The notes under the pieces are model-generated. The model was given only the letters and a program-made list of their open reading frames with translations, had not been told where the DNA came from and did not search any database. A DNA stretch of 13,477 nucleotides, taken from assembly GCA_023512255.1 (NCBI GenBank), contig JAILZY010000089.1, positions 1 through 13,477 on the forward strand, given 5' to 3'. Made by a program: the position numbers and the translations under genes. Below are positions 1,153 to 3,354 of the stretch, piece by piece (the first letter of the stretch is position 1; every line of letters starts with the position of its first letter). The DNA comes from a bacterium (GTDB taxonomy: Bacteria; SZUA-182; DTGQ01).

Positions 1153-2025
1153 TCATCTCCTCTCTTCAAACCACTTGCTGATCAAAATTGCAGCTTCCTG
1201 AGGTTCAAAGATTGGCCGATGGTCATGCTTTATTCCAAACTGCTCCAATTTATAACCCAAGAGCGTGATCTGTGGCCATTCCAAGCCAAGAGGTTTCAAC
1301 TCAGCCGGTTTGGAAAATATCTCCAACGGAGTGCCTTGACGAACAATTTTCCCCTGATGCATAATAACCAGCCAATCCACTAGGCAAACTAACCGCTCCA
1401 TCTCATGTGAGATGATAATAATGGTCAATCTCAACTGCTGACGAAGCTCACAAATAAGCTCCCAAATCCTCTGGCTAGCCTTTGAGTCCAATCTGGCTGT
1501 CGGCTCATCCAGAATAAGTATTTTCGGCTCTGCTACCAGAGCGGCGGCGATACTTATCAATCGCCTCTCTCCCCCTCCCAATTCGAAGGGAGATCGCCCC
1601 ATAAGGCTTCGGACATCGAATTCTAATCCCAAAAGCTTGAGAGTAGCGGCTATCCTCATCTGGATCTCGTCCCTAGAGCTGCCGCGTCTTTCTAAGCCAA
1701 ATGATAATTCTTGGTAGAGAGAGCTGCTAAAGAATTGATCCTCTGGAAACTGCGGAACTAAAGCCACAGATTTCCGAAAAGCTGCCAAACTCTCCCTGGT
1801 GGTGTAAATATTTTTCCCGTCAGCCAAAATGAGACCTTTTGAGGGCTTCAGTAATCCAGCCAAAAGATAAGCCAAGGTTGATTTTCCAGCCCCATTTGCT
1901 CCAACAATACCAAAGATTTTAGATGGCAAAATAGTCAGCCGAATATCATAAACTGCATATTCTTCTTGTTCTCCTTTCGGAAAATGCCGATAACGGTAGG
2001 AGCAATCTAAAGCTTCAACTTTCAT
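1153..2025 (-). CDS. ecfA2: ECF transporter ATPase, second of pair (EcfA2/CbiO type)
   Basis: The 290-aa protein is an ABC ATPase of the energy-coupling-factor type, which powers uptake of vitamins or of metals such as cobalt and nickel through a shared T component and a substrate-binding S component. Walker A is GANGAGKST (42-50), the Q-loop is PQFPEDQ (91-97), Walker B is ILILDEP (169-175) and the switch histidine is H207 in SHEME. The signature reads LGGGE (149-153) rather than LSGGE/Q, so the usual serine is a glycine. PEDQ after the Q-loop glutamine fits ECF ATPases. Its ATG overlaps the ecfA1 stop by 4 nt (ATGA), which suggests translational coupling. Assignment to A2 rests on order and length. 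No ecfT follows, and the substrate cannot be inferred. Confidence 0.88.
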   Translation of the reverse strand: MKVEALDCSYRYRHFPKGEQEEYAVYDIRLTILPSKIFGIVGANGAGKSTLAYLLAGLLKPSKGLILADGKNIYTTRESLAAFRKSVALVPQFPEDQFFSSSLYQELSFGLERRGSSRDEIQMRIAATLKLLGLEFDVRSLMGRSPFELGGGERRLISIAAALVAEPKILILDEPTARLDSKASQRIWELICELRQQLRLTIIIISHEMERLVCLVDWLVIMHQGKIVRQGTPLEIFSKPAELKPLGLEWPQITLLGYKLEQFGIKHDHRPIFEPQEAAILISKWFEERR

Positions 2026-2849
2026 GGTTTTAGTTTTTCCAAGGCCGCGACCAGATGATCAACCGTGTAGATTGGATGAGCGACCGCAAGCCCCTTGTCC
2101 TGCAATATCTTGACAAGCCTAACAATCGGTGGGACCTCAATACCCCATTGAGCCATATCCTCCGGCCTTTCTAATAATTCCCAAAAAGATCCCTGCCACA
2201 CCACTCTCCCCGAAACCAAGGCCACAACCAGATCCGACATAACCAATTCCTCAAATCTCTGGGCCAGGTAAATAATGGTCCCCCCCGCCTGATGAAGACT
2301 CTTGATCAGAGTCAAAACTTCCTCCCGCCCCTTAGCATCAAGATGCGAGATCGGCTCATCCAAAACCAGATATCGTAATCCCCGAATGACCATAGCCGCT
2401 ATGGCTAGCTTTTGCTTCTGACCACCAGATAGCTGATGAATCGAACAATGCCGATATTCCTCCATATCCAGAAATTTGAGAATATCGGCTACCTTCTTTT
2501 CAATCTGAAGAGTATCCATCGCTAAACTCTCCAGGCTAAATGCTAGATCATCTTCCACGATCGGGAAAACAATCTGATCCTCGGGATTAGAAAAAATCAA
2601 CCCAATGGTCCTGGTCAACAGATTATGATCCCAATGAGCCAGATCAAGCCCTTCGATCAAAACCTGTCCTGAGGATGGACTCAAAAGCCCAACCATAATC
2701 TGCCCCAGCGTGCTCTTTCCTGAATTGTTCGGGCCAACGATGGCAGTAAGACTCCCTCGGGGAATGTTTAGATTAACATCTTCGAGGGCCAAAATCTTTT
2801 GGCCACAAGGTCCAGAATAAAAGTGGCTTACCCGCTGAAGGGAAATCAT
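2022..2849 (-). CDS. ecfA1: ECF transporter ATPase, first of pair (EcfA1/CbiO type), partly degenerate motifs
   Basis: The 275-aa ABC ATPase is the expected heterodimer partner of the next gene. Walker A is GPNNSGKST (39-47), the signature is a canonical LSGGQ (140-144) and Walker B is YLVLDEP (160-166) with E165 kept. Two catalytic-site residues are replaced: the Q-loop reads FSNPEDQ, with S87 where glutamine is usual, and the H-loop reads LAQRFEE, with Q197 where the switch histidine is usual. The C-terminal part containing WGIEVPP resembles ECF ATPases of anaerobes. The ATG at 2849 is the first good start, but its upstream region lacks a strong Shine-Dalgarno site, and the gene begins 28 nt past a strong terminator. 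No promoter was recognised in that gap, so expression may depend on read-through or an atypical promoter. Confidence 0.88.
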   Translation of the reverse strand: MISLQRVSHFYSGPCGQKILALEDVNLNIPRGSLTAIVGPNNSGKSTLGQIMVGLLSPSSGQVLIEGLDLAHWDHNLLTRTIGLIFSNPEDQIVFPIVEDDLAFSLESLAMDTLQIEKKVADILKFLDMEEYRHCSIHQLSGGQKQKLAIAAMVIRGLRYLVLDEPISHLDAKGREEVLTLIKSLHQAGGTIIYLAQRFEELVMSDLVVALVSGRVVWQGSFWELLERPEDMAQWGIEVPPIVRLVKILQDKGLAVAHPIYTVDHLVAALEKLKP

Positions 2850-2952: not shown

Positions 2953-3354
2953 TTATGCCGCGCTTTCTTTATTCTCTGCCTGCTCTTGCCCTTTTCCGCC
3001 AAGACCGAGCAGATCGACCATGGTCATAAAGGCACCATCCCCTTTTCGTGGCCCAATCTTAAGCAAACGGACATAACCACCAGCTTTTTCTTTATAATAA
3101 GGAGCAATCTCCTTAAAAAGTTTCTTAACGATCTCCTTTTTGGTAATAAAGCGCAAAACCATCCGCCGGGCATGCAAGGTGTCAGCTTTAGCTGTGGTAA
3201 TGATCTTTTCTGCAATCCTTCTAGTCTCTTTGGCGCGGGCTTCAGTAGTTACAATCCGATTGTGCTCAAAGAGCGAGGTAACCAGATTTCTGAGCATGGC
3301 CTTGCGGGCGCCTGTATCCCGATTCAATTTTCTCTTATCTAATCTATGCCGCAT
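2953..3354 (-). CDS. rplQ: 50S ribosomal protein L17
   Basis: L17 (133 aa) is a large-subunit protein near the exit side of the ribosome. The N-terminus [17 protein letters not shown], the block around [16 protein letters not shown] (28-43) and the [17 protein letters not shown] segment (about 91-107) are typical of the family. A Gly/Glu/Ala-rich tail (about 116-133) is a modest extension beyond the conserved core. It starts with ATG with AAAGG upstream, 30 nt after rpoA, and is the last gene before the strong terminator. Confidence 0.97.

Follow-up and report, generated by a model that had tools for sequence, protein, structure and literature searches.

In ABC ATPases, one subunit contributes the Walker A and B motifs and its A-, Q- and H-loops to a composite ATP site, and the other subunit contributes the signature (PMC7756269). 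The closest described systems to the locus analyzed here are the Lactobacillus group II EcfA1A2T modules (L. delbrueckii 5d3m, 5jsz, 8bmp and 8bms; L. brevis 4huq and 9kym), which have the same rplQ-linked gene pair, the same fold and the same composite sites. According to the cryo-EM report on L. delbrueckii ECF-FolT2 (PMC10368641), under ATP the EcfA subunit carries ATP, which stacks against the S-component, and EcfA′ carries ADP, and either single Walker B Glu-to-Gln mutant abolishes both ATPase activity and transport; EcfA is equated with EcfA1 here via the PDB chain names. Degenerate-site exporters hold ATP at the degenerate site while the other site hydrolyses (PMC7756269, PMC12422388), and a missing catalytic Walker B Glu has been named as the hallmark of such a site (PMC7544095). 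We analyzed an ecfA1-ecfA2 pair in a bacterial DNA stretch of 13,477 nucleotides, the whole of which is called the window below. With slightly better than even confidence, its motifs suggest that the two ATPases belong to a divergent group II ECF importer and form two unequal composite sites, in which the EcfA1 site would hold ATP and the EcfA2 site would hydrolyse it.

The ecfA1-ecfA2 locus and its motif residues

The minus strand of the window encodes, in this order, rplQ (2953-3354), ecfA1 (2022-2849, ECF ATPase 1, 275 aa), ecfA2 (1153-2025, ECF ATPase 2, 290 aa) and a TolA/TonB-like gene (218-1042), and the ecfA1 and ecfA2 ORFs overlap by 4 bases. rplQ is the usual upstream neighbour of ecfA1-ecfA2, and it was found upstream of ecfA1 also in G001 (same genus as the window genome, G000), G002 and G003 (same family, other genera) and G004 (same order). 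In the window and in G001, ecfA2 is immediately followed by the TolA/TonB-like gene, which is not the case in G002 and G003. The best family of EcfA1 is TIGR04520 (ECF_ATPase_1; 239 bits, against 201 for TIGR04521) and that of EcfA2 is TIGR04521 (ECF_ATPase_2; 237 bits, against 203 for TIGR04520). Both scores lie below the curated cut-offs (315 for TIGR04520 and 330 for TIGR04521), so the two proteins are divergent members of their families. A swapped A1/A2 assignment was ruled out, family scores and gene order being concordant. The top PDB matches of the AF2 models of EcfA1 and EcfA2 are ECF ATPases, and the best PDB match of EcfA2 is the EcfA2 of 4mki. Because the EcfA1 model is moderate (pLDDT 79.7, low near Walker A), no geometry was taken from it. 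Paralogous ECF ATPases of type 1 and type 2 thus lie side by side, as in group II ECF modules.

A shared profile built from 19 EcfA1/EcfA2 sequences was used to assign the motif columns (all coordinates in this paragraph are on the minus strand). EcfA1, which supplies the core of the site that we regard as weakened and the signature of the canonical one, has the Walker A sequence GPNNSGKST (residues 39-47; 2709-2735), in which Lys45 is retained and Asn replaces a usually constant Gly. Its Q-loop Gln is replaced by Ser87 (codon TCT, 2589-2591) and Gln197 (codon CAG, 2259-2261) occupies the switch-His position, and the signature LSGGQ (residues 140-144; 2418-2432) is canonical and the catalytic Glu165 (2355-2357) is kept. 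EcfA2, which supplies the core of the canonical site and the signature of the putatively weakened one, carries LGGGE (residues 149-153; 1567-1581) as its signature, with Ser replaced by Gly at position 150 (codon GGA, 1576-1578); its Walker A Lys48 is intact, Q-loop Gln92 (1750-1752) and switch His207 (1405-1407) are canonical, and the catalytic Glu174 (1504-1506) is kept. A phmmer alignment to PDB 4mki_B (EcfA2), which is independent of the profile, also sets LGGGE on LSGGQ and the EcfA2 segment IISHEM on VSHNM.

Every residue named in the original prediction therefore falls on the expected column, including the three altered EcfA1 motifs, the Gly in the EcfA2 signature and the canonical LSGGQ, Gln92 and His207. 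The further claim that all substitutions belong to the EcfA1-core/EcfA2-signature site is borne out as well: the altered motifs are confined to this composite site, and the EcfA2-core/EcfA1-signature site retains all catalytic elements. For binding of Mg-ATP, the EcfA1 core still has the Lys-Ser-Thr of Walker A, the Asp-Glu of Walker B and an aromatic A-loop. For the window alone this is weak evidence, as three changes would share one of two sites in about 1 of 4 cases by chance.

Motif changes in relatives and among surveyed pairs

The window belongs to a small group, its class being represented by eight further genomes. The rplQ-ecfA1-ecfA2 block and the same altered sites are present in G001, G002 and G003, so the pattern is maintained in four genomes of three genera and cannot be a sequencing error; a pseudogene was ruled out likewise, the ORFs being intact. 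The EcfA1 identity to the window copy is 73% in G001, 61% in G002, 49% in G003 and 34% in G004. G001-G003 all show FSNP or FSKP in the EcfA1 Q-loop and AQ at the switch, and their EcfA2 signatures are LGGGE, LGGGD and LTGSD. In G004, the EcfA1 Q-loop also carries Ser, the His is replaced by Ala and the EcfA2 signature is LSQGQ. In G006, which belongs to the same class, EcfA1 has the Q-loop Ser with the His kept, and EcfA2 has the signature LSAGE with the switch His lost. This EcfA2 (L010; ILTTSTL) is the only one without a switch His in the survey described below.

The survey set contained 90 EcfA1/EcfA2 pairs, tandem or fused, from whole-genome searches and selected regions; because some phyla were searched on purpose, the sample is biased and its counts should not be read as natural frequencies. 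The EcfA1 core is canonical in 28 pairs (15 groups) and lacks the Q-loop Gln or the switch His in the other 62, and the Q-loop Gln is missing from EcfA2 in none. Replacement of the EcfA1 His by Gln with a normal Q-loop was found in 52 pairs from 16 family-level groups, and separate phylum searches detected the replacement in at least four phylum-level groups beyond that of the window. The EcfA1 His-to-Gln change is therefore not special to the window family, and the original expectation that such asymmetry is unusual in ECF modules holds only partly, as one of its marker residues is common in otherwise ordinary pairs; these pairs are, for their part, lopsided in the same direction. The co-occurrence of Ser and Gln in EcfA1 with a changed EcfA2 signature is kept in the close relatives, and among the 90 aligned pairs the full combination (Q-loop Gln to Ser, His to Gln and loss of the signature Ser) is limited to the window family (4 pairs), as is any loss of the EcfA2 signature Ser. 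Among the tabulated pairs, the same Walker A Gly is lost only in this family (GPNN) and in L137 and L142 (GPNA). The latter two (family f113) are fused pairs which combine the GPNA Walker A with Ser for Gln in the EcfA1 Q-loop and keep the His, and they represent a possible independent parallel to the window family. Outside the window family, the commonest EcfA2 signature change is at the third position. Its interpretation as a loss of function was rejected, because CbiO ATPases with normal cores carry LSYGQ or LSFGQ.

One-sidedness was counted in 71 non-redundant pairs, with a signature change defined as a change at positions 2-4. Core changes, at the Q-loop or the His, affect EcfA1 in 48 pairs (Q-loop altered in 8, His lost in 45) and EcfA2 in 1 (Q-loop in 0, His in 1). 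Signature changes show the reverse distribution, with 23 of 71 in EcfA2 and a single one in EcfA1 (third position, in G003), and Lys and Glu are retained in both subunits of all 71 pairs. Almost without exception, then, the substitutions fall on the side that was predicted from the window. EcfA2 signature changes accompany an altered EcfA1 core in 23 of 48 pairs and a canonical one in 0 of 23 (Fisher test, 2e-5, without correction for kinship); a kinship-aware paired test gave three independent contrasts on well-supported branches, too few for power. The EcfA1-core/EcfA2-signature site is the one repeatedly worn, and this general point is of more interest than the single window.

On the best tree, loss of the EcfA1 core is seen in the class of the window, in L137/L142 and in a clade of 42 rows, and the His is apparently regained twice within the His-to-Gln clade. 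The proteins concerned (L190 and L198, from the phylum of G290) are fused EcfA1-EcfA2 proteins nested in that clade. Two origins of the His-to-Gln change, one in the window family and one in the large clade, are favoured but not proved, as a single origin for both was not rejected by the AU test on 39 rows (p-AU 0.07).

Rates of change were expressed relative to non-motif columns, the window family being represented by four sequences and nine columns. The relative rate of the EcfA2 signature is 0.69 in this family, while quartets of canonical pairs have a mean of 0.37 and a maximum of 0.66 (0 of 2000 reach 0.69) and quartets of the His-to-Gln clade have a mean of 0.46 (13 of 2000 reach 0.69). 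Walker A (0.15) and the Ser-bearing Q-loop (0.12) are among the best-conserved parts of EcfA1 in the family. With these parts slow and the EcfA2 signature fast, selection appears to maintain the ATP binding of EcfA1, while the contact made by the EcfA2 signature appears to be relaxed.

Proposed mechanism and alternative readings

Judged from the sequences, one site of the pump probably accounts for the bulk of ATP hydrolysis and the other holds ATP. Most of the hydrolysis would be done by the EcfA2-core/EcfA1-signature site. The opposite site lacks the Q-loop Gln, switch His and signature Ser, the residues that sense and clamp the gamma-phosphate; it would retain ATP for long, with slow hydrolysis or none, and the ATP held there would aid closure of the ATPase dimer and reset of the membrane part. 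The term "weakened" rather than "dead" is warranted for the EcfA1-core/EcfA2-signature site, because none of the 90 pairs has lost the catalytic Glu from either subunit. In ABCC1, a His-to-Gln change in the catalytic site NBS2 leaves transport wild-type-like (PMC7756269), and given this tolerance and the kept EcfA1 Glu, the weakness of the site is something we infer. The predicted asymmetric ATPase with one weak site thus agrees with the one-sided changes and the fast EcfA2 signature, and the retained Glu tells against it. Since the L. delbrueckii Glu-to-Gln mutants are each inactive, no experimental precedent for one-site function of an ECF module was found. A wider proposal, tentative and held with somewhat less than even confidence, is that one natural lineage among the ECF (type III) importers evolved a motor with one fast hydrolysis site, in which the EcfA1-core/EcfA2-signature site wears across bacteria because only the holding of ATP is needed there, the EcfA2 site doing the work.

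The three missing gamma-phosphate contacts could also have been tolerated or compensated (Gln for His, Ser for Gln, Gly for Ser), so that both sites hydrolyse ATP as in an ordinary two-site ECF ATPase. The universal catalytic Glu, the wide occurrence of the EcfA1 His-to-Gln change with its apparent return to His in L190 and L198, the tolerance of ABCC1 and the requirement of a canonical ECF for both Glu residues (PMC10368641) are all consistent with this. We nevertheless consider it rather unlikely, because the three contacts are missing together from one site, among the 90 pairs only the window family has lost the EcfA2 signature Ser, in a signature that evolves unusually fast there, and neutral drift should not leave the other site so consistently untouched.

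No ecfT adjoins ecfA1-ecfA2 in G000-G004, so EcfT is not encoded with the ATPases as in group II modules. Such adjacency is usual in group II ECF but not strictly defining. The window genome holds three CbiQ-family genes, of which two have cbiM and cbiO neighbours and one stands alone behind ftsZ. This lone ecfT (G000:C161, locus L219, 7606-8430, minus strand) ends a murC-murB-ddl-ftsQ-ftsA-ftsZ cluster, and the ftsZ-ecfT neighbourhood is shared by the window genome, G001, G002 and G003, with one intervening gene in G004. In G006, ecfT is upstream of truA instead. The EcfT identities to the copy of the window genome (75% in G001, 57% in G002, 47% in G003 and 30% in G004) parallel those of EcfA1, and thus the ftsZ-linked EcfT is the likely partner of EcfA1-EcfA2. 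Among S-component profiles, PF12822 had no match in the window genome, and PF02632, PF07155 and PF20221 had none in G000-G003, the PF20221 search being without a positive control.

These missing matches, the distant ecfT and the EcfA1 and EcfA2 scores far under the family cut-offs would suit a pair that is no longer the motor of a vitamin importer, its S-components lost and its worn site part of that loss, under relaxed selection or in another use. This is improbable in our judgement: the ORFs are intact and the core motifs well conserved in four genomes, each of them also retains, behind ftsZ, an EcfT whose divergence runs parallel, and the S-component searches covered four families where many others exist. 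A fully dead EcfA1 site without ATP binding, to which several altered motifs including one Walker A Gly might point, is highly improbable, as the Lys-Ser-Thr of Walker A, the Asp-Glu of Walker B and an aromatic A-loop are all present and Walker A and the Q-loop are among the most conserved EcfA1 parts in the family.

Comparison with known transporters

The pair with one ATP-holding and one hydrolysing site that we propose resembles L. delbrueckii ECF-FolT2 in nucleotide polarity (PMC10368641). In the EcfA1 of L. brevis, aligned from a solved structure, the Q-loop, LSGGQ and His are all canonical, whereas the Q-loop and His of the window EcfA1 are altered. Each Walker B Glu is individually essential in L. 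delbrueckii (PMC10368641), in contrast to the unequal roles proposed for the window pair; the window also differs from the Lactobacillus modules in that its ecfT is not adjacent. The 52 His-to-Gln pairs share with the window the same switch replacement in the same subunit and the canonical EcfA2 core and EcfA1 signature. Unlike the window, they retain Gln in the EcfA1 Q-loop and Ser in the EcfA2 signature; many of them are fused, and they form a separate clade on the best tree.

Among ABC exporters, those such as TAP1/TAP2, ABCC1 and Pdr5, in which one site is degenerate, are like the window pair in that the changes are confined to one composite site, with the H-loop and the signature included (PMC7756269, PMC12422388). 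In the exporters, however, the degenerate site as a rule has another residue in place of its catalytic Glu, whereas Glu165 of the window EcfA1 is kept, so the hallmark of degeneracy is absent. No report of degenerate sites or of the EcfA1 His-to-Gln change in ECF modules was found in the titles, abstracts and passages of the open-access main texts searched. A one-sited design is known mostly from export pumps, and here a possibly new form of it would occur in importer ATPases. That losses fall repeatedly on the EcfA1 site provides an independent hint on the polarity of ECF modules. The natural partial losses form a panel of ready-made variants bearing on whether the two ECF sites share one job, given that the L. 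delbrueckii module depends on both catalytic Glu residues and nevertheless, under turnover, carries ATP on EcfA1 and ADP on EcfA2 (PMC10368641).
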